Shown here piece by piece: positions 9,701-61,027 of a stretch of DNA of 64,000 bases. Under the pieces are notes generated by a model, which was not told where the DNA came from, made no database searches, and worked only from the letters and a program-made list of their open reading frames with translations. The DNA lies in contig NC_088302.1 of assembly GCF_032854445.1 (NCBI RefSeq), forward strand, positions 42,290,191-42,354,190, written 5' to 3'. Both the position numbers and the translations under genes were made by a program. Origin of the DNA: Liolophura sinensis (taxonomy: Eukaryota; Mollusca; Polyplacophora; Chitonida; Chitonidae). Each line of letters begins with the position of its first letter. Position 1 is the first letter of the stretch.

Positions 9701-12700
9701 TTATGTGATTTCTAGGGTGCTAATTAAGAGAGGTACACGTAGGGATAATTACAGATTACGTCACAGGATGGCTTCTGGAAAAGCACTGTGGGTAGGTCTA
9801 ATGTATGGATTCGGCAATGCTTTGCAGGGCTTGTCGGTACATAATATCGACAGGTCTTACGTGCATGACGTCACGCGGCAAGGGCTTCCCGGTCAACAAG
9901 ATAGGCAGATTAATGTTTTTTTTTAATGGAACTACCTGACGTAAGATTTTTTAAATGCAGTTTTCAGATTAACATAGCATAAATATTGTGTTTAGGGAAC
10001 ATTTAGTGTGAAAATAAAGTCGTTGGGATCTCTTTTACAATTGCATGTTGTCTGTTACAACATTTGTAACAGTTGGCTATAATTTGTATTTAGATGTTTA
10101 TAATTATATGTGGTATTTAGATATAGAGTAACAAGTTGTATCCACAGTAGCAGTACATGTATCTAAGAATTCAGTATTTTCATATTTTTGTTGTTATTAA
10201 CTTTTTTTTCTTTTTTCTTTTTGTATATAGGTGACAATAACCTAAAGTACGTAGCTCTCTGTGCCTATTTAGCGGATGAAAGCTGCGATAAGTCATCAAT
10301 CCCCTACACATTCAGATCTTATACTAGAACAAAGCCTTTTTATACATGCATACGCTATCCCTCTAGCCTCCATAAACTTTCCGTAATGATTTCCTAATGA
10401 TAGTTCTGGTAATGTTTGCCACATCAACGTGTTTCCTTTCATTTGTGTTACAATCTGGAAACGCGTCTTTGTGTTACTATTTACTATAGTAAAGATGTGG
10501 TACATTTACATAGTTAAATATCACATATTTACATAGTTTCAAGGTTTGAAGGCTGTTTATCGGATTTTTACACTTAATATATACAGGGTCGTGCTTACTA
10601 GACCATTTGTGTTTATTGAAAATATCGATTTATGTAAACATCTGACGAATTTATTATAATAAACATATCTTTTGGGTTACGGAGCATAGTGTTTAGTGAA
10701 TAATCATCAGGACGTGTTTCCAAACTGAAATATTAAAAAAAAAAGAAACATGTTTTAGTGTGCATGGCTATATCAGTTTTCCTCATCTCAGTATACCTCA
10801 GTTAGAATAAGCTTCGTGAAAAAAAGCTTCGCGCTTCATAGTGGTTCAAACATGTCTTTTTCAAACATGTTTTCCTATGGTAGTACATGTATCACGCCTT
10901 TTGAAAAACCTTTTGAAGAATTCTTTTTTTGGCTACATTTGGCTATATTAGTTTGTCTCTCTGTGTCTTACCAACTTAGGTGTTCTGTTTTTTCACAATT
11001 TCTGAATATGTGCCAAAAGGCTCCCAGCACTTCATCCCACAGCCCTCAGTCCACTCACCGCTTTCGACCAAAATCACCCCCACGCGCAATTTTTTTTTTA
11101 CTTGCTCTCACCCCAGAAGCTTTGCTCTATGTGCAGGATTCGGTCTGCTCGAGTCTGGTATGGTAAGCGCAAAGAACGAGGTGAATATCATGGTAAAGAA
11201 CTGCGTGGACGTTCTGTTCGGGGGTCTGATATTCTGGATGGTAGGGTTTGGCCTGGCCTTCGGGAACGGCCCCTATAGCAACGCCTTCTGTGGGGTCGGT
11301 TACTTCTTCCTACAGGTCGAAGAGGCGGAGATGGGGGTCGTGTTCACCTGGTTCATCTTCCAGATGTCGTTTGCCACCACTTCCACCACAGTAGTTTTCC
11401 GGTGCCATGGCGGAGCGCGCCAAACTTACCGCCTATATCGTCTTCTGTGTGTTCAACACGCTTGTCTACTGTTTTCCCGCCCACTGGGTGTGGGATTCCC
11501 GGGGATTCCTGCGTCTTTTGGGCGTGGTCGACATCGCTGGGGCGGGGGCAGTCCATTTGGTCGGGGGGTGCTCCGCTTTGGTGGCCACGCTTCTCCTCAA
11601 ACCACGCACGGGCAGATTTGATCGCCCCACCCGGCCCTGAAATGGGATGCCCCACTAACTCAATTGTTGGCATGTTCATGTTATGGTAAGTTAAATAAGA
11701 ATTCTTAAAAAAAATGTTGATTTCGTTTAGATTCAGTGCAAATTTAAAATGAAACCACCGAATTCACAATTAAATGGAAATCACCTCGAAATAATAAGCT
11801 GCACATTTTGTCATCGAATAGGTATAGCTAAATTCAGTCCCTTTGACGCCCATCACACACTTTGTCCAGTGTATGTACCAGTTAAGTCTTATTAGATACC
11901 CAATGGTAGTTTATGAGTAAAGGAAATTGGACAGAGCTCGAAGGAAAGTAAATGTGTTTGCAAATACCTGGAAAAAAACTGAAGCCACAAATGACTCAGG
12001 AGGAGTTGGTTTTTTGAACATGCGACTTCGCGGGAATGAATTTGGGCCCTTTCACACAGAAAAAAGTGACTTTGAACGCCATCGAACTACCTCTTAAGTT
12101 ATAACCTTGGATACTTAAATGAAACCATGTACTTCGATTTGAATGTACAGGATACTAAATCAATGCACTCAGCAGCCTCTGATATTGACAATTTCCAGCA
12201 TCGCTGATCAGGTTTTCATTAAAAACTGGGAATCTTCTTTGTGTTGCGAACAGTCAGCCCTTTTAAAAGGATTTTGTTGGTATATTCACGGATAGGCCAT
12301 TGACAGCAGGTTTAAATGGAAGTTCCATATGCCATCAGTGTGGCATTCAGGAAGATAGAGTGTCTACGAAAGAACTGTTCTCAGCGCTGAGTAGGTCATT
12401 ATTAGCGGCTTAAGGGCTTGTAAGGAATCCTTGCAGTCTACATAGCATCTCACTGACAACAAATCACAATGACAGCGGCATAAATCAATCGCAGGGAGAC
12501 ACAAGAGATTATGGAGGGGTAGGTTGCTAAACCGTACTCGATAACCTCAAGGCATTTATTTTATCGTGCTGCAATTTGCCAAGAATTCCGCTTCATTAAC
12601 AAAATCCAGGTAGCTTGTTCCCTGAATTGCAGTACATCTCGCTGAATATTGAAGACACGTTCTGTTATTATATGACAAGGTTTTAATACGTTGTGCTACA

Positions 12701-32019: not shown

Positions 32020-32814
32020 TCAAATATACGTCATTTCAAAATCTGGGGTCACATCAGGGCATTTTGAATGTGACACATGGTCAGATCCATTTGACGGCTG
32101 TTCTATGTTTATATGGAATTCGGTCGATGGTTCTCTGCTAAAACCGTAGCCGACATTGGCATATCCATTACTGATATGTCCATTTGTGGAACTGTTTTCC
32201 ATGCCATACTTAACTTGCAAGTATTCCGTCCTTTTGAGTTCCTTCAATGTTGAAGGTGAATGGATAGTGCTAATATCCTCGGAACGCCGTTCCGCGCTTT
32301 TGGAATGCTTTGTACTATTTTTTGAAGTCCTGAAGGGAAGAGATACTCGACTTTCTCGGCATAAGTTGGCGAAAAAACAGTCACAACAGGACACAGTATG
32401 TTTCAGTTTGGATGGAGAATAGCTTGGCGACGCGTTTCCGTTGATGGCATCCTCATGTTGCACATCGCCGTCTTCTATGTCCTCATCATCCGTTGGGAAC
32501 TGGCACCGTTTTCGGCTCTGCCTCTTCCCTAGTGACATTCTCCTCCGCCGTGACCCCAAGAACCTGTTTACCATCATCTCTTCCTCTTCACCATCGTCGG
32601 TGAGCTTGATCAAGCGCCCGGTGGATCGGTCGTAAATGCCCTCCCCAATGCCGTGTTCCACGATATCGGCCCCCAGCAGTTCCTGGTGTAAAGGGATCCT
32701 CAGCCCAAGGGTGAGATCAATTAGCTTCAGAATGACGAAAGATGTGACCAGGGTCCAGCCAGTCAGGCTAACCACCGTTAGGGCCTGCACACCCAGCAAG
32801 TAAAACCCACCTCC
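32020..32814 (-). CDS. amt: AMT gene 2, last exon (TM11, hinge, long tail)
   Basis: Acceptor TATTCCAG at 32815, stop TGA at 32020. Encodes GGGFYLLGVQALTVVSLTGW, then IDLTLGLRIPLHQELLGAD, VEHGIGEGIYDRSTG and the tail. The tail has an acidic patch (DDGEEEE), a strongly basic stretch with a PKA/PKC-like site (SRRRRMSLGKRQSRKR), a second acidic patch (DDEDIEDGD) and a Cys-rich hydrophobic patch (CCDCFFANLC) that could be lipidated or membrane-associated. TM11 and the tail share one exon, unlike gene 1. Confidence 0.9.
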   Translation of the reverse strand, partial: GGGFYLLGVQALTVVSLTGWTLVTSFVILKLIDLTLGLRIPLHQELLGADIVEHGIGEGIYDRSTGRLIKLTDDGEEEEMMVNRFLGSRRRRMSLGKRQSRKRCQFPTDDEDIEDGDVQHEDAINGNASPSYSPSKLKHTVSCCDCFFANLCRESRVSLPFRTSKNSTKHSKSAERRSEDISTIHSPSTLKELKRTEYLQVKYGMENSSTNGHISNGYANVGYGFSREPSTEFHINIEQPSNGSDHVSHSKCPDVTPDFEMTYI

Positions 32815-35800
32815 CTGGAATACGCAAAATAAAAACGGTTTACAAGCAAAGAAAAGTACATTATGGTCATGGTTAACTCTCGCCTGAGAAAGTGCACTTT
32901 GTAAAGCAAATAAATGTCATACAGCTAGTGTTATTGTTATTTGGTTTGAGTTTGGATTTATGGATGAAAGTATATACATTAGAACCAGAGGGCAAATGTG
33001 TCATAATACCTGAAACAATCCAGCGTGTTCGGTGCTGATGGCTAAGGCCTCTCCTAACATATCTTTTCTAGCGAAAAGTCCCACAGCCAAGAGACTCCAC
33101 ATTCCGGACAAAGCGTGAGTACCTACGCAACCTGAAATGTGCAATGTTATATGACATGTCGTTAAACACTTGTGCAATGTTAGTATGCTCTGTCCCGTTT
33201 CCTCCCACCATAATGCTTGCCACCTTCGTAAAGATGAAATACTCTTATATAAATAAATGAAATATTAGTACGTCCATCTGAAAAAAGCACTTTATAATTC
33301 TTTTCAACAGATGTAAACACAATAAAAAGTACCACCGCTGTCAGTCCAAATATTGAATCAGACTGTTAAAAAGAATTGCTAACCATTCCCGCTTATAGTA
33401 ATTCAGGTCGAAGCTGTTGTAACCTGTTGTCTATTCCCCCCTTTGCCATGAATGGTTTGTTTGCAAACTGGTAACATAGTACACTGTATGGATGTATTAC
33501 ACGAGAACAATGGTCAATCCGTGTTTGAACTGAGTTATCATTGCGCGGAAAACGGTACGCCATTCCGTCGACTGACATAGAACAGTACAAGTGTAGAATG
33601 AAAATCTCTATAACCAGCTGGTGATTGGCTTAATGGTAACACGTTCTACAGGTCATAGTTGCTTTCCTTGATGTGATATCAATATAAAGAATAATGAGTG
33701 GACAATAAAAACATTGATAGAAACAATTGCAATTGGGCATTTTATTTATCTCTTTGATTGGTATTTTACGCCGTACTCAAGAATATTTCACTTACAGGCC
33801 AGCATGATGGTCAGAGGAAACTGGGCAGAGCCCGGGGAAACCCAAAACATCGGCAGGTTGATCTGTAATTGCGCAAATCCAGCGTTTACCTGCACGTGAA
33901 TATAGGTAAACTGTTACACAAAGGGCATTTCTTAGCGTCGCGTGGGCCAGGGAGCACTTACCAACTGGATCATCCACTTTCATCCTATCCAACAGTTCCA
34001 CCCCAATGTTTGTGATGAGTGCTCCGATTGATCCGATTACTATTCCCTCCCACGGCTGCGCAAGCGCACAGAAAGCTGTAAGGATTGTATTAAGGATATC
34101 TCATAAATTTCATTTGGATACTGATTTTAAACATTTGGACAATCTGAGAAGCGAGGTGTTATATTTTACGCTATCAAGAGATACTGGTCATTTTATATCA
34201 CGCTGTTATATGTTATGAGACAAATCAAGCAGAAGAAATTACAACAACTTTCACACATGGCAATAACCTCTGTTATAGTCTATTTCTTTTAGAGAGTCGC
34301 CTATATCCTGTCTGTAAAATCAGTCATACTCGGAACCAAAATTGCCTTCAGTCAGTGAAACGTAACAACACAAGCTCTAAATATGGATATGTTTAAAGAT
34401 CATATTCTTGCTAGGGAAATGAAGTAAGAACACTTTTTCTAACTTATAATGTTAATGTTCATAAGCTCTTTCGACGGCAAGAACCAGTTGCCTCGGGTGA
34501 CGTCAAAATTATTCAAATACCAGTGGCATGCTGGGTATTGAGCGGAGTTCAACATGTTTTTAAGGAGTTTAACACCAGTTACCTGAACTGCTGCCAAGGT
34601 TATCGTAAACCTTGTTTCTGACACTGCTATATTTGAAATCGTTCGCACGTTTTAATATAATAAAACCTTAATAAATTAATTTTACTTTATCACTTGTAGC
34701 ATATGATCTCACGGCAGTATAGTTTTAAGGATAGATATCAGAAAATTAACGCAATCTAGTTATTCACAGAGACAGTAGTATAGGCGGTGTTATTGGATGG
34801 AATTTGTTCTAACCGCTGATTGGTGCAGCCATTGTAAAACAAAATAGTCTCCACACTCACGGTCCAGCATACAATTTGTTTTTTTTTTTTAAATAATTAT
34901 GACGTCACACGAGGCAATGCATTCCTGCTGTCGAAATTGAGCTTATGGAGTTTAACATTATCAAATAGAAAAAGTATTTTAACTGCAATTTCTTTACAAT
35001 AGTATGGACGTCCAACTCATCAATGTGCAGAGCTCAGATGGATACGTGACACTGGTAAAGGGCAATTTTGGGTACGAGTACGACTGATTCTACAGAGAGC
35101 TGAATATAGGCGACTATCTAAAATAAGCAGACCGGCAAACTCTAACAAACTGTATTACTGATAATACATATACATTATTCGCCAGCTGAATATTGTCTTA
35201 TGATGCACTGTACATGATACGTATTATATATACATATTTCATTCGTGCAGACCTATCTCTGATATCACCCAGTGTGGTTTAAGTGAAAATAAATTCATGC
35301 ATGAAAGAATATCTAAGTGGGAACAGAAGTGTATTCTTATCGTTAAATACTGGACCATGAGAGAGACTGCTTCAATATCGTTGACAACTGCTCAATAGTT
35401 GTGTAGTTCTCAAATCATGTCCTCTTCGCGTTTTACACATACAGGATTCCTCTCATATGAATTAATCTGAAGCTTTTGTCACCGAAGGCACGTCTACAGG
35501 CTAACGAACAGGACACATTTAATCCCCCAGACATGTCGTGAATGCCGATATGTTTATTCATTGTTATCTCCATTCCCACTAAAATAACCTCAAAAAGTAC
35601 TGTGGCAACTCCAGCAAATGACGCAAAGCGATTCATGAGTCAACATTTCGTGAGGTTTGAAAGTGATTTAAATAAAACCGAAATATTAATCAAATAATAT
35701 TTGTTGGCGTTGCTACAGTACTCTGCTTTATCGCCACACTGAAAACCAGCTACATATAATTTGCCTAGCCCCAAGCCATGGCAAGCCTGGGACGATCTTG

Positions 35801-38800: not shown

Positions 38801-41800
38801 GGGTGATAAATTTACTTTAGTGCGATGACGATAGTTCATATGATACAATGTCTTTTACATCCAACTTTCCAAGTTACACAATGTAAAAGTCAGAATGTCA
38901 GTAATCATGAAGTAAGCAACAGAACGTTATGTATCAATGATACCAAATGACGTTCATTTACCCATAACACCAAATGACGTTCATTTACCCATAACATCAA
39001 ATGATATTCATTTATCCTTGACACCAAATGACGTTCATTTACCCTTGACATCAAATGCCGTTTATTTATCCATTAAAAAGCACTTGCCATAGCATGAACA
39101 TTCCCAAAATAGCGTTCGTTGGAGAACCCATTTCTGGAGGATTTTTGGACTTGTATCTGTTGTGTCGGGGTTTTAACATCAACGTTGCTACAAACGCTGT
39201 CACTCCTCCGACTAAATGGACTGGTCCAGCGCCGGCAATGTCGACAGCGCCCATGTCCTGTAGCCAGCCTTTCGTCCCCCACATCCAGTGAGCAGGAAAA
39301 CAGAAGACAAACGTGTTGAACATAGAGAAGAAAATGTAGGACTCGAGTTTCGTTCTTTCCGCCATCCCACCTAAAACAGTTCCAAATAAGAGGGAAATCA
39401 AAGAAAGTGCGACTACTGTGCAAATGAAAGAAATCTTTTTCTCTTTTTGTTTAGCCATATAATTGGTAGAAAGTAACAAAAAGTGCCGATTACATCTTTT
39501 GTCGAAATGCAATACATAATATAACATGTAGAGGAAAGGCTACTCTCTGAATTAGTGGATAAAACAAATGGACTAGCTATTCAACGTTGGGGGCCCAAAT
39601 CGGTTCAAATCCATGTAATCTCCTGTATTTCACTCTACTTTCGGGACGTAGCTCAAACTTTCAAAATTGGTGAGGGTGAAGGTGTTTAATTTACATTAGT
39701 GACAGGACGAAACGAACCTCAATATTACACATCTGCATGTGACATGGTTATGTACTGATTAACTTAATTGGATAAATATGATATAAACAAATATTACAGA
39801 CTCTTGAGACTTAGACGTCCTTATTTTATACAGTTTGCACAAATATGTGTTTTAAAATCAAAACTGTCAGGATGCCACTGACCAAGTCGGCTAAGCTTTT
39901 TTTCATGAAAGATGATAAGCTCTTGATCAGTGAGGTGGTGGATTCGAGTCCAGCTTTCGACTCTGTCTTTGCTCAAGAAGATTTTTCAAGCAGGTATCTG
40001 GTGTTTTCCTCCGTTCAGGAACTTTACCACCGTCACATGAGTAAAACAGCCTTGAGAACAATGTGTAACATCAGCCTAATAGATAAATAAATAAGTAAAT
40101 TGCCAATCAAGTCACCCCAAAAACCAAGCCTTTGCCTAGGGGTTTATACCTAGCAGCCGTTCTGATCTTCGATGTAGACAGACTTACTTTAATCAAGTCC
40201 ACCGTATACCTATTAGCGTTTGCTACTGATCAAAACTCACAATGAACACACCACAAACACAAGCACGGATTTCCACAGGGCACTGCTAATTTCAGGTTCA
40301 TATTTAATAAAGGGAGGTAAATTTGGCCCATGGTGCCACAGGGGTATTTATGCTTCTCCGTTTTATACATGCTTAAAACAGAGATAATGCCAATTAGCTT
40401 TTTTTTTAATATATTCGTTTTTGACATGTTTTAACGGATATTGTTTTGCAGTATATAAACATCACGGGATGTACAAGCACTGTGGTCAAAACAGGAACGT
40501 TCTACGCCCTAGCAATAAAGTACTATAAACCGAAACATTCTGAAGACGTAGTCAATGTGGTATGAAGTCAGACAATTGTTATAAAGGAGTCTGGCTCAAG
40601 ACAAAAATAATTTTGATACTAAATGGACAAATATTTTACAGGATAACCAAGAGTTCTGGGAAAGGACAGGCTAGCTGTAAATCCATACTAATAGCCCTTG
40701 TAAGTATAATAACTACCAACTGTAACTATCTTATAAACATAGTAATTACTGGCTGATACTCCCTCATTACTGTCCCTGTCTTATTCTAATTAAATATTAT
40801 CTTTTCCTCTAGTTGCTCCTCAGAAAGAGTTCCCCATGATTTGAGGGATAGGTTTTTGGCTCCAGCCTCAGGTTTGGGGATTATCAAATACTCTGGTTAA
40901 ACCGACAGACTGCCAGAACAACGGAACAACACCCATCAAGCAGGCAAAATACAGCTTCCACATAAAAGACATCCATTAACTTCCACTTCCACAGAAATTA
41001 ACCTACATTCTTATCAACACGGATTTATAATCTTCCACTTCCACAGAAATCAAGAAAGTTTCATATCTCCCCCCCCCCTCCCCGAAAAAAATCCACGTCC
41101 ACGGTGATTTATCATCTTCCACTGCAATATCTGTTGACAATAATCAATTCCTATATCCTAAGAAGTTATCAAACTTCCAAGTCCGAGTAGTAATCAACGA
41201 ACGTTCATTTCCATCTGGGCTTTCAAGGAAATTTCCTAAAATACCGTGAACCATTTTCCACTAGGGCTTGAAAGATGCCTTGTGTGAATGGAAGGCGTAC
41301 TACCTACTGAAATATAATCAAAATGCTCTGCGCCTGTACGGCCGAAGATGTGGGACAAGCTCTATTGAACTGAACAGCCACCAAATAACAAGTAATTGGC
41401 ATAAAATGATCAGAGTAATTCAGTTCTAAATATTTCCGTCAACGGCTAATGGAGGCAGTTAAAGTTATTTTTATGCCGAGTTCTATAAAGAGACCATTCA
41501 CTAAAACTGATACTTTACGCTTGACTATAAAATGGGTCTTATTATTTCAAGGAATTTCTGTTGGTACAATTTTCATATTGGGCAGAAGAAAGTAAGATGA
41601 AATATAATGGCAACTACTCACTTCGCTCTTTAGCTCTAGCTAAACATTTTGTTGCCGTGTAATAATGACTTTCTGACACCTGCAAAACCTTTACAATGCA
41701 ATGCAACATTTCTTTTTACATATTGATTCTTCACGGGTCGGATTCTAGAAACCATATTGTGAAAGCTGTTTCATTCGGGAGGAACTTCCACACGTATTTA

Positions 41801-44800
41801 CCTGGAAAGTGCGATGGTTAGACCCTAGGTGAGCATTTAGTTTTTCTATATAACAGCACACAGTTTTTGTGTTTCATTCACGTATTTTGCGATTAAAGCC
41901 TTCACCTTTGAATTCACCTTCTATACAGTGGGTATCAAAACGTGCATAATTCTGTAGCTGTCCAAACACTACCGGTTTGCCCCAAAACGGGAACGCCAAT
42001 GTCCCATTGTGTAGTTAACTTGCCAGCGTAGTGGCCAAATGCAGTTTTATTATGTTGACCTTACATATGGTGTTTATCAAAAGCTGATACCTTTCAGAGA
42101 ATGGCACACAGATTTTATTATCAAACTGACGTTCCGATATTGATTTACTTTTGGATAGAGATGTTGATCAAATCCACTGGTGAAGTTCCACCGACCAACT
42201 CATTATCATCTGAATCTGAGCCATTTCCTGTAATTAGTCATATTTTCAGATGTAGACTGTCACTTTATAGCTGGCTTCCCTTAGCGCTTGCGTTAACAGT
42301 TGTCTATTCACAAAGCCCATACCCGCATCTATCAGGAAGCACAGGTAACGTCAAAACGTGGGTCAACAAATCTGCAGAGCAAATAGAATATACTGTGGCA
42401 ATAATTCCACTTGATCTGTTTTTGTTTTAATAACTGCTGATAAATATCTCCATGTCGTATACAGTGTAAAATACGAAACAGTGGGCAGATAAATTTAGGG
42501 GAGAAAATATAGGGTATACCTATACCTTCAGTATACCTACCATCAGAAAAAATGCACGACAATAATCGCTAGACCCATTACAGAACCAACGTTCACAGCT
42601 AACCACTAAAGAACTAGAAAAGTATATAAAGCAGGCAAATGGGGCGGATCCATGCAAAGAGAGACAGTCAGTAAATTTTCAGTGACGATGGAAAGGCGAA
42701 TGAAATAGATCAGTATTCAAACAGTGTTCCAAGTTAGTTTGTAAGTTATTGGAGATCAAAGTATGTATCTCAGTTACGCTTTGATTGCAACTGTTCCTAT
42801 ATCGAACGTGTCGATCTAATTCAGAGCAAGGAACATACAGTCAGTAGAACCTGCTTCTGAAGAATTAGACACAATTATGAAGTAGAGAGGTAGGGATCCT
42901 GGACACTCTGTCCATATTTGCTTTCAAGGGGAACTGTAATCACTGTAAAACTTAAGACACTTGAGAGGTGAAGGCATTTGCTGGAATATCAATTGACAAA
43001 CTATTTTTTGCAATGACAGGTTTTCAACTTGACTTTAATATGACTCATTTTAGTGGCATTAAAATTGGTAAGGCAAGTAACATTGACACCAAAAATGGCT
43101 TTCTTGAAAAATATTGCGCTTTTCAGTTTTTGTGTGTTTTTTATGATTGGCTTACAAAGGCTGAGCTTTGATTTGTATGTTATGAGCTAGATCTGAGAAC
43201 GGATTCAGTTTTACAAGCTTATCTTTGGAATACAAACCTGTATTCTGACTTTGCAAAAACCTGCACAAGAAGAGTGATCAGTCCAATCTAACAAGGCATG
43301 AAGGTGTCATGAATTCTGCTGAGGGTGTTCACACGGTTTCCAGTTGCGCAATACGCCAATAACGCCCGTCTAATTTATGGCCTTACAGTCTCTAGAGCTC
43401 ATGGGCAAAAAAATTTAAGAATCCAGAATTAATTCCGGAATTAAAATCAATACGCTTGTTTGGTTCCAGACTTGAACACGTTGAAGACACGCACGTGAAA
43501 CGTCTGATTTCCAGATCAGTAAACACACCGATTCAGAACGTTTGATATGGAAGCGAAGCAAGCGACATGGCCAACCGATCTCAGAACAATGGTGGGTAAG
43601 GTTTATGGGTGATAGAAGTCTGGCAGAGAAAGAGTGTAACCAGCCTCCTGATGAGTACAGCCATGCCATACTTTGCGAAAATCAGCTTTCGTTCATGAGA
43701 GTTCGTTGCTGGTACCAATAAATGTACAGCCAACAAGGTTTAAGCTTTATAGTGNNNNNNNNNNNNNNNNNNNNNNNNNNNNNNNNNNNNNNNNNNNNNN
43801 NNNNNNNNNNNNNNNNNNNNNNNNNNNNNNNNNNNNNNNNNNNNNNNNNNNNNNNNNNNNNNNNNNNNNNNNNNNNNNNNNNNNNNNNNNNNNNNNNNNN
43901 NNNNNNNNNNNNNNNNNNNNNNNNNNNNNNNNNNNNNNNNNNNNNNNNNNNNNNACGACAGAAGCTTCAATTGATTTTGTCAGAGTTGTTTACTCTGTAA
44001 CCTAATCAAACTTCCAGTAAAAGCCAAGGTATTATCGACTCTCATTTGTTCGGTGACCTGCTCATATTTCATTTCCACTTTGATCCTTTTGTATAATATC
44101 TGCGCAGACTTTTCGTAATAGATTTTATTCCGTAACGATATTCTTGGCTATAAATCCCAGATGCAGATCAAAGTAAAGCTAAATGCTTTGTTTCTATTTT
44201 AATATTGTCTCAATCAGCCAATCAGCATCGCTCTGTACAACAGCACGGGAACAATTTTACATGAGCCTCCTAAAACCAACATCAAAACTGAAACTTAGGA
44301 AACCAATGCTTGCCTTACATTAACAATAGCTTTCAAATAATCCATTGCAATATTACTTATCACTGGGATCAAAATGATTATTGAAGACCTAAATCTCGTG
44401 ATGTAGATGACGGCAATATAACGAATATCCTATATAATTCATAATGCGGCATAAATCATTCTTTCCGTGCTCAGTACTTCACAGGCTAGTTATAGTGCAT
44501 TAGAACTCGCCGCGGCGGGTCACCAAGCACTACTCACGCCGGCTGATCGAAGGTGACAAACACACTTACCGGAAACTATTGTGGTAGCTGTTGTGGCAAA
44601 GGACGCTTGGAAGAAGAATTTGGAATAAATCCATCCTATTTTTTCCTCCGTATCATGTGAGTTCACGAAGAAATCCCCCCAGCCGCAGAATTTGTTCACG
44701 TAAGGTTCCATCTCCCAAAGCTGAGACCGTAGCCAAACATCCAGTACGTCAGTCCTCCGAAAATCACATCTACTGCATTCTTCACCATAATATTCACCTC

Positions 44801-47800
44801 GTTCTTCATAGACACAGACCCGCTTTCCAGTAGTCCAAACCCTGCCAAGAGATCAGTCGAAACGTTTACGTAAGAATTAGACACAACAACGTACCAAACA
44901 CGTCAGTAGTATATTGATGCCCACACTATAATACGCTATTACCGGTACGTTCTTTTTCCGGCGCATAACAATGTCAAAAGTAACCCAAGAAAACTGTTAT
45001 ATGCATGACGCCGCATTTGGGTTTCAACTGGCGTCAAATCATTAGCTTTACGATACTGATTTTTTCTATTTCACAAATACCCTGCGGATGGCCTTTGTGT
45101 TTCCCCTTGTTCTGTCCGGTTTCCCCTCATCATAATGGCACACAATCGTATAATTGCAATATTCTTGCTTACGGCGCAAAAATACAAATCAAATAAATAA
45201 ATATTTTGTAGATAATCCAGGCAGTAAAAATAAATACGTTCGTAAGGACTTTTCAGGCTGTAATTTCTGCATTGCAAATTACATTTGTTTGGGTGGCAAT
45301 GCACTAAATGTCTAGATGGTGGTTAATCTGTCTTTTTGAAAATTAAATTGTGTACTAAAATCGACAAAAAATACCTAGATTTCGAAAGCTGTTTTGGTTT
45401 CTTGTTAATTTCTGCCTTTAGGACGACTTTCAATGCGTAAACGGGGAATGAAGTACTCATTCGTTACAAGAGAAGAGTGGTCAAGTCAGCCCGGAACCCT
45501 TGTGATCAATTGTTATTTGTACCTTTGGTATGACTTTTAGTGGGTAAACTGGGAATGAAGTACTCATTCGTAACCAGAGAACAGTGGTCAAGTCAGCTTG
45601 GAACCCTTGTGATCGATTGATATTTGTACCTTTGGTATGACTTTAATGGGTAAACAGGTAATGAAGTACTCATTCGTAACCAGAGAACAGTGGTCAAGTC
45701 AGCTCGAAACCCTTGTGATCGATTGTTATTTGTACCTTTGGGATGAATTTTAGTGGGTAAACTGGGAATGAAGTACTCATTCGTTACAAGAGAACAGTGG
45801 TCAAGTCAGCTTCGAACCCTTGTAGTCTATTGTCATTTGTGCCTTTGGGGTGAATTTTAGTGGGTAAACTGGGAATGAAGTACTCATTCGTTACAAGAGA
45901 ACAGTGGTCAGATCAGCTTGGAGCCCTTGTGATCGATTGTTATTTGTACCTTTGGTATGACTTTTAGTGGGTAAACTGGTAATGAAGTACTCATTCGTAA
46001 CCAGAGAACAGTGGTCAAGTCAGCTTGGAACAATTGTGATCTGTCGTTCATTTGTGTCTTTGGGTGTCTTTTACTGGGTAAACTGGGAATGAAGTACTTA
46101 TTCAAGAGAACAGTGGTCAAGTCAGATTAATTGGAACCGAGTCGCCAATGCGGGAGAAAGGGTTCCTCGTTCAGTAAGTGGTGAAACTATAGTCTACTTC
46201 CTTTACAGAGTTGCCTATATTCACCTCTGTGTAAAATCAGTCATAGTCCCTCCCAAAGTTGCCTTTAGTCAGTGACACGTAACAACACAAGCTCTACTGA
46301 TATGTTGAATATCCATATTGTTGCAAAGAAAATGCAGTCCAAATACTTTTTCTAATTCATAATATTTAACTCCATAAGCTTAGTTTCGACAACAAAAACA
46401 CATTGCCTACGCTGACGTCATAATTATTCAAAAGCAAGTTACATGTTTGGCAATGGGCGTAGAGAGTAATTTTTTTTACAATGGCTGCACCAACAAGCGG
46501 TTAGAACAAACTCCATGCAGTAATACAGTCTACATTATTGTCTCTGAAAATAGACACATCGCGTTAATTCCCTAACATCGATCTATAAATCTATACTGTC
46601 GTGAGATCAAATACTATAAAATATATTGCATTTATTAAGCTTATATTAGTCTAAAACGTGTAAACAATGTCAATTTCAGTAACAGGGTTTACAGTGAAGC
46701 CGATAGCAGTTTAGGTAACTGGTGTCGCCCTCCGCCAAAACATGTTGAGCTCCGCCAAAAGGTTTTTGAATAATTCTGACGTCACTCGAGGCAATGGGCT
46801 CTTGACACCGAGTTAATGGACTTTAGCATTATGATTAGAGAAAGTGTTATAACTTCATTTTCTTTGCAAAAATATGAACTTCCAATGTCTACGTGTAAAA
46901 CTTGCGTTGTTATGTGTCACTGACTAAAAGCAAATTTGGTAGCAAGTATGACTGATGTTATCGACAGCTGAATGTAGGCGACTGGTCCAAAAAAAATAGC
47001 ATTAGTTTTGCTATTCGTACAACAATTTGGAACATTAATTTATTCAGGCATTAAGGGCCAATGAAATAGCTCCTTGAACAGAATTACTTCAGTGGTGTAG
47101 TTTCGCAATTATACCCTTATTTAAAAAATAAACTCTCACAGACAGGGCTGTTTATTATATAGTTATTTCTAAGAGGATTAAGTATTTAAGCTTACGTGTT
47201 TCTGATCGCTTAAACTGGACAGACAATACATGTATACGGCCGTATGTTTACATCCGTCATGGGCTCATTAAATCAGCGGGGATAAGCGGAACAGAAAAAG
47301 ACAAAACGTGAATAATTTATCATTTTGACTTTTACCTAGAAAAGATAATAATCCCCAGCGGAAAGGAAGTCTTATGACGCAAAGCCCTTTGTTTTAACCA
47401 GCCTACCCAATACCCCATTAGTGTTAAGGTATCTTCAGAGAAAGTCGTTATGAGCTGTTTGTAAGGTATCCCTGATGAGATCGATCGATTCCTATAATCT
47501 CTTCTTCAGTTGTGCATCGATTGCCTTCTTTGCTTCATACAGTCCTTTTGTTGTCAATCCCCAATTCTATTTCACTTACCTACATCCATTTTGTGCATGT
47601 GACAATAGTAGCGTAAACATCTATTCTGGAAACCCCTTCAAAATCGATGTAAACCAGAGCTATTTATTTATAGTCTCGATACCGTGATGAAGTTGACTGT
47701 TGTTGTAAAAATGACACCAAGGAAAATGAGTACCGTATAAGACAAGGCAAAACAATGCCGAGCTAGAATACCTACTGCAGATTTCGATTTGACGGTCATG

Positions 47801-53800: not shown

Positions 53801-55408
53801 GCCGTCGACAAAATATGACATGAGCAGGTCAAAAACCATCACTCACGTAAACAGGCTAAAGTCAATGACAGCCGTCGACAAAATATGACATGAGCAGGTC
53901 AAAAACCATCACTCACGTAAACAGGCTAATGTCACTGGCAGCCGTCGACAAAATATGACATGAGCAGGGCAAAAACCATCACTCACGTAAACAGGCTAAT
54001 GTCAATGACAGCCGTCGACAAAATATGACGTGTCATGAGCAGCACATGAGCAGGAGAAAAACCACCACTCACGTAAACAGGCTAATATCAGGACAAAAAC
54101 CATCACTGAAGTAAACAGGCTAATGTCACTGACAGGCGTCGACAAAATATGACGATAATGAACAGCACATGAGTAGGGCAAAAATCATTACTCATGCGAA
54201 CTACAGGTTACTGTCACATATAAGGAAAGCAAAAATCCTCACTCCCTATGATACACCCCCATCGCATGCCTGGCGAACGACAGACAAAGACCTCAAAAAC
54301 CTTAGATATGGTATAGTGCATCGCCCGTTTGACAAAGTATGAAACTTCACATACCACGTCGCCTATATCACGGGCGACACGTGCATGCCCAATACATTTT
54401 AGTTACACATGGTATACCACATCATTCGTGTGACGAACAACAGGCAAACACCGCTTAAAACCTACTTTATGGTATATCGCTTCCATTGTCTGACAAACTA
54501 TGAAAGCTTCAACTGTGGTAAAACGCATCGCTCATCTGACAGGCAAAAACCCAATAAACCTCGATTAAAATATTCCTTATCGGCCGTCTGACGAGCAACA
54601 GACCAATTAAGCACCTCAATTAAGATACACGGAAGCAGCCATGTGACGATTGCCGCACAAATGTAAAAATAAACTAAGTTATCAAATACCTCGCCATAAG
54701 TTTTATAATTTTGTTTATTATATGCAGCATTTGACGAACCACACGGTGATGTAAAAAACGAAAGAACGCATTTGTGATACATAACATCACCTGTTCGTCG
54801 CACGAGAGGCAAAATAAACAATACCCCTCAAATATACATTGCATTTTGCATATATGGACATGTAAGAAAATCTCATTTATAAATGATATCACATGTTTGA
54901 TGAACGATAAGCAAATGCGGAAAAACCTGGTTATTAAGTTATGATTTACGGCATCACCTGTCGATCTGACGATTGGCAGGTATATACTGTCGGGTATTAG
55001 TATGGACCAAGTTACCAAATGGTGGACAGTTTTTATCTTTATTGTACAATTTGATGTCACATAGTAATTGTTCACCATACAATGTAGACATATTAATGAA
55101 ATATTCTTATAACATTGACAGGTGTGCTCTGTACAAAATTGTGCGTGATGTGATCAGCTAACGATATAATGCCGTAAGAGGTGCATGAGACTAGAGGTTG
55201 ATTTCGTCGTCTCATCGTGCGCTGGGCCCGAGAAAACAATGCGAACATACAAGTGTACAGAAAAATAGAGAGACTCACCAGATTGCATAGTAAATATGAT
55301 AAAGGTAGAGGAGAGTATCCATATTGAGTCGGATTGTGGGTCGGTGATTTCGGGGAGTAACGTGCTGTTCTCCACCGACCAAACTTCACTGATGTTCGAT
55401 CCATTCAT
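32020..55408 (-). CDS. amt: ammonium transporter 2 (AMT/MEP family), nine exons, one frameshift
   Basis: Second AMT channel, about 641 residues if one frame break is repaired. Coding exons in reading order: 55408-55279, 44841-44570, 39370-39088, 38631-38560, 36814-36755, 36015-35939, 34075-33962, 33131-33010, 32814-32020; phases agree throughout. Hallmarks: three N-glycosylation sequons in the extracellular N-terminus, SSTFIIFTMQSG joining GFGLLESGSVSMKNEVNIM, SFATTATTIVSG, AERTKLESYIFF, CFPAHWMW, VDIAGAGPVHLVGG (pore Asp and first His), WWGWLGFNCGSTFGIS, VGTHALSGMW (second His), and GADIVEHGIGEG. A cytoplasmic tail of about 200 residues follows. One base appears missing near 44711-44716. Intron 3 uses a GC donor. 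Intron 2 contains the 200-N gap, and introns 1-2 are rich in satellites. An alternative first exon lies at 57586-57724. Confidence 0.9.
33010..33131 (-). CDS. amt: AMT gene 2, exon 8 (TM10)
   Basis: 122 bp between TTTCAG and TTTCAG/GTATTA. Encodes CVGTHALSGMWSLLAVGLFA with the second pore histidine, and EALAISTEHAGLFQ. Confidence 0.9.
33187..33265 (+). repeat. SINE family 1 fragment
   Basis: GCTCTGTCCCGTTTCCTCCC and ACCATAATGCTTGCC followed by a diverged tail. In AMT gene 2 intron 7. Confidence 0.65.
33740..33870 (-). repeat. SINE family 1, 3' part
   Basis: TTTGATTGGTATTTTACGCC, AGAGGAAACTGGGCAGAGCC and CATCGGCAGGTTG. In AMT gene 2 intron 7. Confidence 0.8.
33962..34075 (-). CDS. amt: AMT gene 2, exon 7 (TM9)
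   Basis: 114 bp between CTTACAG and GTTG/GTAAGT. Encodes AFCALAQPWEGIVIGSIGAL, then ITNIGVELLDRMKVDDPV. The donor after DDPVG has no counterpart in gene 1. Confidence 0.9.
34281..35128. mobile_element. long-inverted-repeat (fold-back) element, copy 1
   Basis: About 850 bp. The left end TTTTAGAGAGTCGCCTATAT is mirrored by GAATATAGGCGACTATCTAA at the right. Inner arm features are also mirrored (GGGTGACGTCAAAATTATTC against AATTATGACGTCACACGAGG), giving arms of 230-280 bp around a unique core. No coding capacity. In AMT gene 2 intron 6. The core orientation is opposite to copies 2 and 3. Confidence 0.8.
35129..35938. other. intron 6 of AMT gene 2, no gene seen
   Basis: About 800 bp without a supportable feature. 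Confidence 0.45.
35939..36015 (-). CDS. amt: AMT gene 2, exon 6 (TM8)
   Basis: 77 bp between GTTGCAG and ACGG/GTAAGC. Encodes YILKKRRFDVAYMINGVL and GSLVGIT. Confidence 0.9.
36180..36343 (-). repeat. SINE family 1, two thirds
   Basis: (TTTA)n, TTTGATTGGTGTTTTACGCC, GCCAGCATTATGGTGGGAGG, ACAGACCTTCCCACGTACGG; the head is missing. In AMT gene 2 intron 5. Confidence 0.88.
36755..36814 (-). CDS. amt: AMT gene 2, exon 5 (TM7)
   Basis: 60 bp between TTTTCAG and TCAG/GTGAGT. Encodes SAVSTLCASMGGGFVGILL. Confidence 0.9.
36815..38559. other. intron 4 of AMT gene 2, no gene seen
   Basis: AT-rich. It has a short CT run near 37790 and, at 38025-38080, sequence weakly like the SINE family 2 tail (GATCATGGTTTAATCCCACT). 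Confidence 0.45.
38560..38631 (-). CDS. amt: AMT gene 2, exon 4 (TM6)
   Basis: 72 bp between GTTTGTAG and CCAG/GTATTT. Encodes the WGWLGFNCGSTFGISGQKWK core. Confidence 0.9.
38935..39062. repeat. tandem repeat of a palindromic 29-30 bp unit, about five copies
   Basis: ACACCAAATGACGTTCATTT followed by ACCCATA. Each unit centres on the near-palindrome AAATGACGTTCATTT. The array ends 26 bp from the GC donor of exon 3. Confidence 0.9.
39088..39370 (-). CDS. amt: AMT gene 2, exon 3 (TM4 to TM6 start), GC donor
   Basis: 283 bp from acceptor GTTTTAG to donor CTATG/GCAAGT, a GC-AG intron in an otherwise strong donor context. Encodes MAERTKLESYIFFSMFNTFV, CFPAHWMWGTKGWLQDMG, VDIAGAGPVHLVGGVTAFVA and NPPEMGSPTNAILGMFML. 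Confidence 0.9.
39875..40100 (+). repeat. SINE-like repeat, family 3
   Basis: Pol III B-box-like GGATTCGAGTCCAGC, GGTATCTGGTGTTTTCCTCC, and a tail ending AATAAATAAGTAAAT. The body differs from families 1 and 2. Confidence 0.5.
40101..42650. other. intron 2 of AMT gene 2, no gene seen
   Basis: AT-rich, with a C-rich run near 41072. The open frame at 42101-42430 lacks family resemblance. Confidence 0.4.
42655..42980 (+). repeat. dispersed repeat R, copy 2 (uninterrupted)
   Basis: Matches 20056-20308 and continues into sequence matching 21168-21235 without the 860 bp present there. Shared phrases include GATCAGTATTCAAACAGTGT, CTTTGATTGCAACTGTTCC and ACTCTGTCCATATTTGC. Confidence 0.65.
43755..43954. 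other. assembly gap, 200 N
   Basis: Exactly 200 N, so a placeholder of unknown real size. It lies in AMT gene 2 intron 2, between exons 2 and 3; no exon appears to be missing. Confidence 0.98.
44570..44841 (-). CDS. amt: AMT gene 2, exon 2 (TM1 end to TM3), frameshifted
   Basis: 272 bp from acceptor CTTGGCAG to donor TCCG/GTAAGT. Encodes FGLLESGSVSMKNEVNIMVK, VDVIFGGLTYWMFGYGLSFG, then after the break MEPYVNKFCGWGDFF and SFATTATTIVS. One base is missing near 44711-44716; a fourth G in the GGG run would restore the frame. As read, a TGA follows at 44696-44698. Confidence 0.88.
45081..45203 (+). repeat. SINE family 1, 3' part
   Basis: CTGCGGATGGCC, TTCTGTCCGGTTTCC and a diverged tail AATACAAATCAAATAAATAA. 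In AMT gene 2 intron 1. Confidence 0.7.
45420..46130. repeat. 107-bp satellite, about 6.6 copies, in AMT gene 2 intron 1
   Basis: AATGAAGTACTCATTCGT recurs at 45447, 45554, 45660, 45767, 45874, 45981 and 46088, with spacing 107 (once 106). Units also share AGAACAGTGGTCAAGTCAGC and TTATTTGTACCTTTGG. The last unit is shortened. Confidence 0.96.
46190..46997. mobile_element. long-inverted-repeat element, copy 2
   Basis: Left end AGAGTTGCCTATATTCACCT, right end CAGCTGAATGTAGGCGACTG. The arms mirror each other through CGCTGACGTCATAATTATTC and TAATTCTGACGTCACTCGAG. The core has ACAATGGCTGCACCAACAAG, the reverse complement of core sequence in copy 1. It follows the 107-bp array by about 60 bp. Confidence 0.82.
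46998..49080. other. intron 1 of AMT gene 2, no gene seen
   Basis: AT-rich, no supportable feature. Confidence 0.45.
49083..49299 (-). repeat. near full-length, well-preserved SINE family 1
   Basis: TTTATTTGATTGGTGTTTAC, ATTATGGTGGGAGGAAACCG, GGCCGGAGAGGAAGCCACCG and GACCGCATTGGTGACAGGCT. It is one of the least diverged copies, lacking the last part of the head. Confidence 0.9.
49300..53095. other. intron 1 of AMT gene 2, mostly unannotatable
   Basis: No gene. A decayed relative of the palindromic MITE sits near 52660-52745 (ATGTCTGAGTGACACTAGAA, CAGCAGGTTATTCTGTCATT). An Asn/Ser/Thr-rich open frame at 51044-51241 (+) has no supporting context. Confidence 0.4.
53330..53685. repeat. degenerate tandem repeat, about 55-65 bp unit
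   Basis: Units resemble TTGTGAAGAATTGCAGGTAA followed by ATGACAATAAATACACAACACC. Five or six decayed copies. Confidence 0.7.
53690..54200. repeat. 70-bp tandem array with an 86-bp long variant
   Basis: The unit contains GACAGCCGTCGACAAAATAT, GACATGAGCAGG and AACCATCACTCACGTAAACA. GCCGTC recurs at about 53715, 53801, 53871, 53941 and 54011. Long units carry a 16-bp insert (GTGTCATGAACAGCAC). Later units are rearranged. Confidence 0.93.
54201..54990. repeat. older degenerate tandem array
   Basis: Phrases such as GTGTGACGAACAACAGGCAA, TGTCTGACAAACTATGAAAG, CCGTCTGACGAGCAACAGAC and TCTGACGATTGGCAGG recur at about 50-65 bp. This suggests one old satellite family from which the neat 70-bp array arose. 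Confidence 0.55.
55279..55408 (-). CDS. amt: AMT gene 2, exon 1 (candidate a)
   Basis: 43 codons plus one base. The ATG at 55408 begins MNGSNISEVWSVENSTL (three sequons), then SDSIWILSSTFIIFTMQSG. Donor TCTG/GTGAGT, phase 1, fits exon 2 at 44841. The frame is open upstream to about 55486 but without an ATG. Confidence 0.88.
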
Positions 55409-57274: not shown

Positions 57275-57585
57275 ATTTCACGTGTTTTGTGTGAAAGTTA
57301 TTCATATAATTACATAATTTATTGCGGTGGCAGAGCAATGTGTATGATATATGCGGTTCTACGACTGTCATACATCGATATTACGTCTGTCCGCATATAA
57401 CTTGATAGTACCCGTAATTCAAGCTCCAGGCGACAGATGGTGACATTTGGATTGAACAGACCATGGCTTTATAATGAAAGGAAAGATCATGGAGTCAAAA
57501 ATAGTTGAGAATTGAGAGTATAATAAATTACGGCTAGCTTTGTTTCAAAATCTGCTCTTGCAGCTGTAAACGCAGGTTTTCTTAC

Positions 57586-57724
57586 CCATGAGCATGGCGA
57601 AGATGGTGATGGTAGATTCAATAATCCAGATCGCATCACTGGAACTCGCGTCCCAGCCTGGGGATACGACGGCATAAACGGACGAGCAGTTTCCAGGCCC
57701 TGTTGATCCACAACGGCTGGACAT
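57586..57724 (-). CDS. amt: alternative AMT first exon (candidate b), or first exon of a third AMT gene
   Basis: ATG at 57724, 46 codons plus one base, donor ATGG/GTAAGA in phase 1. Encodes MSSRCGSTGPGNCSSVYAVV, then SSSDAIWIIESTITIFAMLM and G. It aligns with TM1 of the other AMT exons (IWILSSTFIIFTMQSG) and has one sequon (NCS). It has the same length (139 bp) as gene 1 exon 1. It would splice in phase to 44841, giving FAMLMGFGLLESG. The flank just upstream in transcription (57780-57910) is G+C- and CpG-rich, as for a promoter. No other exons of a third gene are visible. Confidence 0.68.
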
Positions 57725-57779
57725 GATCGCGAATACTCTCAGCCCTTGGAATGGCTGTGGTAAGGTATGACGCTAGCTG

Positions 57780-57910
57780 TTAATGCTCACCTGTGAGATG
57801 TTCTAACGTGACAGCCCGACAGACACGCCTCGCGTTACCGCACAACGGATTCCCCAACCGCGGTCGCTGCCATGGCCCCAGGCTGACCTTCACGCCGGCC
57901 GGTCACTGTC
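57780..57910 (-). promoter_or_regulatory. G+C/CpG-rich putative promoter of exon 1b
   Basis: CGCCTCGCGTTACCGC, CCAACCGCGGTCGCTGCC and TTCACGCCGGCCGGTCAC stand out from AT-rich surroundings directly 5' of the candidate first exon. No TATA box was identified. Confidence 0.35.
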
Positions 57911-59448
57911 GCCTCACACCAAGCGATTACTTAACACGTCCATTTTTGTTCATGATCAACATACTGGATCTAGCCCGGCTGCATGTTTTTCGAAAGTACA
58001 GGCCCATCATTTATGGATAGAATAAAGCATTAACTGAGGTAAACTGACAAGAGAGTGGATTTCGTGTTACCATTTGTCATCTATCGCACTATCTTCGCTT
58101 CCATGTTAAATACTGTTGTCTTTTACGTTCTTCCAAGCGAAGATCACGTCATTGTACAAGGTATTTAGTCCACTATTAAACACTTAAGTATCAGGCACAT
58201 GTTTGCTTGGTCAATCAACCCATGATGCACCTGGCCAATTGGTCGTTTTTACCACAGTGTAACCGATTTCTACTCATGATCTTTAATTTACAATACATAT
58301 AATTATTCATATACGTTCTTGTTAGACATGTTTGATCTACAGGAGTTACACTGGACATGTTAATTGCAAAAGCTAACACGGTACTCATCTGTATGATTAC
58401 ATAAAGCAAAGAATGCGGAATCAAACAGTGTTACTCGTATAGAAATCTGGAGTCTTCCCGCTGAGGTCTTACCCCAACATATGATACGCTTTCACTTGGC
58501 CGACATCCTGACGTTTAGCATGCCATTATTTTATTACATTTTCTTACCTGTACCATTCTCTGCTCACTGTTAATTTACCATCCTTTCGTGGATACATGTA
58601 TTACTGCTTTCATATGAACTATATTTATTCCCAAATCATATTTTTCCATAAGAGCTCTTTTCGAACGGACTGATTCGTTTTGTCAGGTCGTAGTCGCCAC
58701 TTATACTTCGGCTTCTCTCTACACACCACCACCCGTATCAAATGAGGTTGAATGCTGAAAATCCAGCTACGGTTCATTTTGTAGATGCTCTTCGTTTAGG
58801 AACTGGTCACACGACTGTGGGCATTCTACGGTAATGACGAGTATTGTTGTAATGCACGCTTTACTTACGTTTTCGTCTATTGCAACGCTGCACGCCTTGT
58901 GACTGCATTCGCAAGGGATTTATAAGCATTTGGATTTAGGTTATAGAAAAGGTCATTGAAGTCTTGATTCCACGTTTTATGTCTGTGGGATATGTTTCAC
59001 ACGCAGGGAGTACAGGAAAAATTTGTACACACCCAAGCTCATACATTAAGACGGATCCAACTTCAGTCAACCCTTACCTAATTTTAGTCATGGCGTACCC
59101 AACTTCAGTCATGCCGAAGCCAACGTTTAATTCATCAAATATTATCCCCAAGATCAATAGCTAATAGTGACACAGTCATGTATCTCGGTTTATATTTATT
59201 TACCTATAAAGTGTCTTGACCACATGAGAATTTGCAAGATCTGAAACCCTAAAACTTCTTTGCTCAATACTGCAAAGATTCGTAAATCCTCTTGTTAAAT
59301 GAACCGATGAACCCATTCTACTGGTGTTTCCATTAATGCATTAATCGTAATTTTCGTCTGACGCAATCTGGTTGTAATAAACACGCACATTTAAAGCCAC
59401 TCGTTCAACCATTTTAAGCGAAAGTATATTTTACCGATGTGCGTGGAG
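57911..59448. other. intergenic, nothing recognised
   Basis: AT-rich, no supportable gene or repeat. Confidence 0.45.
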
Positions 59449-59869: not shown

Positions 59870-61027
59870 GTGATAATGAAAGACAGTTGAAACTATATTA
59901 TTTCAGATATTTGGATACGTTTTGGTAGAACTTTTGAGCATCAACAAAAGGTTAGAAAAATTTCTCTCAAAGATGAAAATCAAAGTCTAATAAACAATTT
60001 CATAATAAAAGCTATTGTCCTCATGTATGTGCCCTTTTCTGAATATCATAACTTTAGATTTAGTCACATTGACTATCCTTTGCCACCTGTCACAATTTTT
60101 GAATATAGGTAAAGCGTTCTACAACCCGTCGGCCGTATCCGGGACAAGAATAAAGTCATTTACATATAAAAGCAAAAACATCTTCTGCATATTAACATCT
60201 ATACCATCGGCTCCTTTAAGAAACAATTTATTTTTAGATCATTCAGATACACTGCAAATAAAAACAGAGATAAACACTCTCCTAGTCACACTCCTTGAGC
60301 ACGGAAAAAGACTTGCTTATATCATTATTTATTTTAACACAAGATTTTAAAGATGCATACATCTTGAGATGAATGCCAAATTCAGTAACTTCAACCGTAG
60401 CAAATCTCTAAAAATATAATCAAAGGCTTTTGTAAAATGTACAAAAGCCGAAAATAATGTTTCGTTATTATTCAATATTCGATTGATCAAACAATTCCAA
60501 ACAAACATATTATTAACTGTGCCAATTTCGGCCCTATATGATGTCTGCGCTTCCACATGTACACTATATTTATCTGCGCATGCGTTAAGCCGGTTGTTTA
60601 TTATGTGCGTGTAAAAAGTTTAGTTAGTTTTAAAAAAGATTAGTTAAAAGGGTGTATGCCGCGAAAATTCTCTGTATCAGTTACACTGCCTTTCTTATGC
60701 ATAGGAATAATATAACGTTCAGGCCAGGAATCAGGATAATAGCCACCGGACAGAACTGCATTGAATAACGCTAAAAATACAGGTTGAAGAAAATCTAGGC
60801 CATAAATAAAAAATATATTAAGTAAGTGATCAGGACCACTGGACTCATTTCTTTTCAGCTGAGATATCGCTAAACGAAGTTCATCATTTGTAATGCCATA
60901 TTTTAATTTATCAAACATTATTTGTATTTCTCCCTGCAATAAAATTACTCACATGTTCAGTGTCCTCGTCTGGTATAAAGAAAATTGGTGCCAGGATTAT
61001 TAATGGCATTGATAATGGTGTATGAAC
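59870..61027 (-). mobile_element. non-LTR retrotransposon (LINE), reverse transcriptase part, decayed
   Basis: On -: GITNDELRLAISQLKRNESS, GPDHLLNIFFIYGLDFLQPV, LFNAVLSGGYYPDSWPERYI and IPMHKKGS (RT blocks 0-1) at 60939-60650. Then RAEIGTVNNMFVW and LFSAFVHFTKAFD (block 3, the F.KAFD motif) at 60556-60347. Then GVRQGE-like and a YADD-like site decayed to YVND near 60160. Stops and frameshifts throughout make it inactive. Confidence 0.82.

Follow-up and report, generated by a model that had tools for sequence, protein, structure and literature searches.

Two AMT first exons that have no body of their own, here termed 1b and 1c, lie upstream of AMT gene 2 on C8 of the chiton Liolophura sinensis. 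On balance, gene 2 probably now draws on promoter/first-exon units from lost tandem copies as alternative first exons, which would exchange its N-terminus and the outer part of TM1. The homology of these exons, the phase they leave, their intact open reading frames and donors, and the lack of any other detected AMT body in the stretch were observed in the assembly itself. Three points tipped the balance towards this reading: 1b is not the only intact orphan, since 1c also exists; 1b itself has kept its ATG, frame and donor; and a dead body still in place at low divergence would probably have been detected. The explanations weighed below overlap in part, and the probabilities attached to them need not sum to one.

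An AMT cluster with six first exons and four bodies

The window is the whole stretch of 64,000 nucleotides, C8:42290191-42354190, and 159 kb of C8 were analysed in all. The source genome was first published as that of Liolophura japonica (PMC11068029), a name corrected to L. sinensis in PMC12441733. A PF00909 profile search of the genome found matching exons on C8, C6 and C1, and AMT gene 2 and its cluster neighbours match PF00909 exon by exon. Searching the 159 kb with HMMs for five body blocks identified four AMT bodies: E and D (both minus strand and outside the window), gene 1 (plus strand) and gene 2 (minus strand). Each of the five blocks was recovered for all four genes. Two blocks of gene 1 were split into two fragments each, and the match to the last block of gene E spans only 31 positions, close to the edge of the stretch. 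Against these four bodies, the same 159 kb holds six intact TM1-type first exons, namely those of E, D and gene 1 together with 1a, 1b and 1c. Each of the six encodes an N-glycosylation sequon and ends in phase 1, and those besides 1b are 130, 118, 118, 139 and 154 nt long. A DNA pattern for FTMQ-x-G followed by a phase-1 GTR gave nine matches in the whole genome, five of which correspond to the canonical C8 exons. Directly upstream of gene D exon 2, the acceptor and first part of exon 2 are repeated in tandem as partial copies (window-relative -17360 to -16990 on C8, outside the window, minus strand).

The features around gene 2, in window coordinates unless stated, are:

C8:42379300-42379417 (window-relative 89110-89227, outside the window), minus strand: orphan AMT first exon 1c, canonical, without its own body
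57725-57924, minus strand: 200 nt preceding the 1b start, GC 0.595, 17 CpG, promoter-like by composition only
57586-57724, minus strand: orphan AMT first exon 1b, running from its ATG to a phase-1 donor with the GT at 57584-57585
55279-55408, minus strand: gene 2 first exon 1a, canonical FTMQSG
44570-44841, minus strand: gene 2 exon 2, where 1a has its first acceptor, as 1b and 1c presumably do; frame broken by one base near 44713
43755-43954, no strand: 200-N gap in gene 2 intron 2, on the 3' side of exon 2 and therefore no place for a body between 1c and exon 2
39087-39370, minus strand: gene 2 exon 3, acceptor TTTTAG, start 39370, the lower coordinate marking where the coding match stops and not a mapped donor
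33963-34082, minus strand: later coding block of gene 2, CALAQPWE...KVDDPV, a body-block match
32650-32817, minus strand: last transmembrane block of gene 2, PF00909 positions 341-395, inside a 298-aa open frame

Structure and homology of exons 1b and 1c

Read on the minus strand, exon 1b runs from an ATG at 57724 for 139 nt (139 mod 3 = 1) down to 57586, where it ends ATGG and is followed by GTAAGA. This agrees with the preliminary description of an ATG-initiated 139-bp exon with a phase-1 donor. Its translation is MSSRCGSTGPGNCSSVYAVVSPGWDASSSDAIWIIESTITIFAMLM plus one base, and the ATG, frame and GT are all intact, without a stop or frame shift. Exon 1a (55408-55279) closes with SIWILSSTFIIFTMQS and one further base; in 1b, FAMLMG does stand where AMT TM1 has FTMQSG, as had been pointed out. 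A glutamate lies within the 1b TM1, and 1b alone among the six first exons has cysteines before TM1, two in number, at 5 and 13. Its donor, TGG/GTAAGA, was judged by eye to be the poorest consensus fit of the six. The GC and CpG content of the 200 nt before the ATG is the highest for 1b among the six; across the cluster, 0.78% of 200-nt windows reach GC 0.56 and 1.44% reach 14 CpG. This segment is thus promoter-like in composition, which is no proof of a promoter. A short upstream ORF, MAATAVGESVVR, in a GCCATGG context, is located 5' of the 1b start (57835-57873, minus strand).

A tblastn query with exon 1a, one residue of which was wrong, recovered 1b in the 159 kb of C8 with E = 7.9e-4. A TM1 profile was then built from the canonical first exons, with 1b left out and a phase-1 GT required. 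Exon 1b scored 48.0, compared with 79-87 for the five canonical exons and 25.2 for the next site, the best non-exon in the 159 kb. The maximum over 20 million simulated strand-bases (first-order Markov) was 33.25, which bears out the earlier claim that 1b aligns with AMT TM1. A TM1 HMM lacking the donor requirement gave 1b an E of 0.44, yet it was still the top match after the five canonical exons. Against PF00909, 1b joined to exon 2 scored 50.4 bits over profile positions 2-58, and exon 2 alone 43.5. The resulting gain of 6.9 bits compares with 13.6 for 1a, 15.6 for 1c and 14.7 for D, while three hand-made scrambles of the 1b TM1 joined to exon 2 scored 45.0-47.7 bits (gains of 1.5-4.2). The TM1 part of 1b alone (47 aa) had no Pfam match, and neither did that of 1a. 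Given the donor-free E of 0.44 and the small Pfam gain, the case for 1b depends on several features together: its resemblance to TM1, its donor and phase, and the strand and place in which it lies. On this combined sequence evidence, 1b is confirmed as a first exon homologous to the first exons of its AMT neighbours.

Exon 1c lies 31.4 kb upstream (5') of 1b. It translates as MFPNLTTPQQAGGKNSMVVSHDDATWILTSAFIVFTMQS plus one base and has the donor CAG/GTGAGT; splicing to exon 2 would require a 44 kb intron. Where two candidate first exons had been counted for gene 2 there are probably three, since 1c adds one.

Search for the missing bodies of exons 1b and 1c

The only N bases in the 159 kb are those at 43755-43954, so 1c, 1b, 1a and exon 2 are contiguous in that order and no body is hidden by a gap. 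Using the block HMMs, with tblastn also applied, no match to an AMT body block reached an E below 0.4 between gene 2 exon 2 and 104 kb. In particular, the block HMMs gave zero blocks below this value between 1b and 1a and between 1b and 1c, in line with the earlier statement that no second AMT exon set separates 1b from 1a. The weak body matches in the stretch from exon 2 to 104 kb all had E of at least 0.4 and were counted as noise, the lowest being to block C at 54406-54531 (E = 0.43). Decayed body remnants between 1c and 1a did not rise above background, and full deletion would leave none.

The sensitivity of this search was controlled by implanting gene 2 exons after random mutation, for four blocks with 30 trials each. 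At 0.1 substitutions/site, every implant was recovered (30/30 for each block). Recovery fell to 22, 27, 17 and 27 out of 30 at 0.2 and to 7, 13, 3 and 12 out of 30 at 0.3, and no implant was recovered at 0.5. Because the implanted exons belong to the HMM training rows, this estimate is optimistic. For both 1b and 1c, a recently dead body would probably still show up unless it had been deleted outright.

Beyond window position 56000 there are 97 ORFs of at least 70 aa, and Pfam searches on ten of these (eight strings), two of them beyond 1c, gave no match over the cut-off. As ten of the 97 were covered, another short-exon gene may exist between 1b and 1c. Also between 1b and 1c, at 60350-60948 on the minus strand, are open stretches that by eye resemble LINE-type reverse-transcriptase fragments, with no Pfam match over the cut-off.

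Constraint and age of exon 1b

Values of pS and pN were computed over 17 TM1 codons, and Fisher tests were performed on rounded counts. For 1b they were 0.98 and 0.29 against 1a (p = 0.0002), 0.53 and 0.36 against gene 1 (p = 0.30), 0.78 and 0.42 against 1c (p = 0.09), 0.72 and 0.36 against E, and 0.83 and 0.35 against D. Thus pN was below pS in all five comparisons and significantly so in one of the three that were Fisher-tested, over only 17 codons and with the constraint on the partner inseparable from that on 1b itself. The 1b TM1 is also the most divergent of the six, with pN of 0.29-0.42 to the others against at most 0.21 among the others. For 1c and E, pS was 0.60 and pN 0.04 (p = 0.0006). 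The proposal of two isoforms from alternative first exons in the preliminary description is supported in part. That 1b is a homologous first exon of fitting phase and lacks a body of its own is confirmed, but its use by gene 2 is weakened by the single significant test and by a TM1 far more divergent than those of its neighbours.

The survival of the 1b ATG, frame and GT was simulated under neutrality, assuming 0.08 frame-shifting indels per substitution. Survival was 0.36 at 0.05 substitutions/site, 0.135 at 0.1, 0.021 at 0.2 and 0.0012 at 0.36. Simulation of substitutions without indels gave 0.63, 0.41, 0.19 and 0.066 at the same distances, which is much weaker evidence. When the flanks of the six first exons were compared, no match between 1a and 1b was found beyond the stretch common to both extracts, and the duplication therefore looks old. 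A sister relation of 1a and 1b, suggested by a shared Ile and Thr in TM1, was dropped, the identities of 9/17 for 1b-1a and 8/17 for 1b-E (by eye) being too close to claim it.

The main rival explanation takes 1b, possibly together with 1c, for a relic orphaned not long ago: the body of a tandem copy was deleted lately and the first exon is yet to decay, being maybe silent or transcribed without use. The high divergence of the 1b TM1 is what relaxed constraint would produce, and the simulated survival at 0.05 and 0.1 substitutions/site is compatible with a recent death. However, as no body remnant exceeds background, outright deletion is required, for 1c as well, and 1c is too conserved for long drift given its pN of 0.04 to E. 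We regard this explanation as a serious possibility but lean against it. Exon 1b is unlikely to be long dead, but may be recently dead. The "dying third paralogue" suggested earlier likewise survives in a narrower form, that of a recently orphaned first exon with a deleted body.

The body of gene 2

Exon 2 starts at 44841 after TTGGCAG, and 1a and 1b present the same phase to this same acceptor. The junction of 1b with exon 2 would therefore be in frame, as had been predicted for the shared exon. An array of similar repeats around TGAGTACTTCATTCCCAGTTTACCCACTAAAA is found in intron 1 of gene 2, upstream of exon 2 (about 45430-46150, minus strand).

Within exon 2, a frame break of one base lies beside a G run (44704-44719, minus strand), owing to which no complete open frame runs through the gene 2 body in this assembly. 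Unless this break is an error, every gene 2 isoform would fail. It might thus be that gene 2 is dying as a whole, with the break real and all first exons feeding a broken body. Exon 2 of gene 1 likewise carries two frame breaks, beside short T and C runs (11393-11398 and about 11625-11638, plus strand), which may reflect error or decay. Against this explanation, the remaining gene 2 blocks are open, in frames of 157, 102 and 298 aa. Furthermore, since the breaks adjoin short one-base runs and the assembly is described as built on 14x HiFi (PMC11068029), assembly error is plausible. The death of the whole gene is accordingly judged improbable.

A further explanation, that 1b begins a whole gene copy which other haplotypes carry and the assembled one lacks, draws on the 1.24% heterozygosity and the removal of haplotypic duplications given in the genome report (PMC11068029). 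The contiguity of 1c, 1b, 1a and exon 2 without N argues against it, as does the single listing of 1b when the whole genome was searched with 1b joined to exon 2, and such a copy is very unlikely. Finally, a chance resemblance of 1b, for which the short TM1 stretch and modest Pfam gain might speak, was discarded on the TM1 profile scan with next to no probability left to it, because 48.0 stands against a best of 33.25 in 20 million simulated strand-bases and because the strand, phase and place of the donor are all right.

A proposed model of alternative first exons in gene 2

According to the favoured reading of alternative first exons, 1b would go back to an AMT promoter/first-exon unit that was duplicated long ago and whose own downstream exons were deleted later. 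The bodies of old tandem copies would have been lost, perhaps through unequal crossing-over, while promoter and first exon remained. Transcription from the putative 1b promoter would run on into gene 2. Exon 1a, as a first exon, presumably lacks a 3' splice site. The first AMT acceptor reached by a transcript from 1b or 1c should thus be that of exon 2 (44841), in frame, and splicing would need no new signal. The 1b product would then be an unchanged channel body with a different extracellular N-terminus and outer half of TM1, and 1c would act likewise from its position further upstream. With separate promoters, expression could differ by tissue or condition, and the front end supplied by 1b, with its two cysteines, might alter subunit cohesion in the trimer. 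Promoter activity, splicing and the effect on the protein are in this way what we infer from the arrangement of the exons. RNA-seq of five tissues is described for this species (PMC11068029).

Counted in favour of alternative first exons were the six first exons against four bodies, the recovery of implants, the homology of 1b over background, the phase and sequon common to all six, pN below pS for 1a-1b and 1c-E, the low simulated survival at 0.2 and 0.36, and the GC- and CpG-rich sequence upstream of 1b. Counted against were the divergence of the 1b TM1, the non-significant Fisher tests against gene 1 and 1c, the weak survival evidence without indels, the small Pfam gain, the poorest donor, the TM1 glutamate, the frame break in exon 2 and the 44 kb intron needed for 1c.

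A more elaborate and tentative form of the model, to which we attach a rather low probability, makes gene 2 a modular AMT locus in which units 1c, 1b and 1a feed one body. The choice of unit would swap the sequon-bearing extracellular N-terminus and the outer TM1 half, and the 1b cysteine pair could disulfide-lock trimers, yielding homo- and heterotrimers of differing stability. If alternative first exons are indeed used, gene 2 would illustrate how a tandem array becomes an alternative-promoter gene: bodies are lost, while their first exons and promoters persist and, since a first exon has no acceptor to splice to, take over the body that comes next. Its product, an animal ammonium channel whose N-terminus and outer TM1 can be exchanged, would also be a natural experiment on the role of that part in the trimer.

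Comparison with known systems

At the positions of the 1b Leu-Met (canonical Gln-Ser), solved Amt proteins have QA (8qj3), QL (6eu6) and VP (2b2f), so this pair of positions tolerates change; none of the three has a glutamate at the position of the 1b TM1 glutamate. In plant AMT1, N-terminal cysteines are reported to stabilize oligomers (Graff et al. 2011, LeAMT1;1, as cited in PMC10218248 and PMC7279009). Exon 1b resembles these in being the only one of the six to encode two cysteines before TM1; that they act in the same way is a guess by analogy. In fungal Mep2, the longer N-terminus touches the neighbouring monomer, and tail-less mutants are reported to have grown as well as wild type (PMC10794816). 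By analogy, the stretch before TM1 in 1b could touch an adjacent subunit.

Isoforms are described for an animal gene of the same superfamily, in that AgRh50a and AgRh50b of Anopheles gambiae are splice variants, one of them tissue-enriched (PMC4216128). These differ only at the C-terminus, whereas the swap in gene 2 would affect the N-terminus and outer TM1. Titles and abstract openings in the open-access literature searched, from which most subscription journals are absent, contained nothing on an ammonium transporter with an alternative first exon or promoter of this kind, and no chiton ammonium-transporter paper.

Like other animal AMT genes (Amt/Mep/Rh superfamily, PF00909), gene 2 would have the start of the domain supplied by its first exon, 1b doing so in the same phase as the others; the C8 stretch differs in its ratio of six first exons to four bodies. 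Alternative first exons are known in another transporter gene, SLC11A2/DMT1, with its exons 1A and 1B. Gene 2 would likewise use separate promoters and different 5' exons with one body, but its candidate first exons each encode the outer half of TM1 as well.
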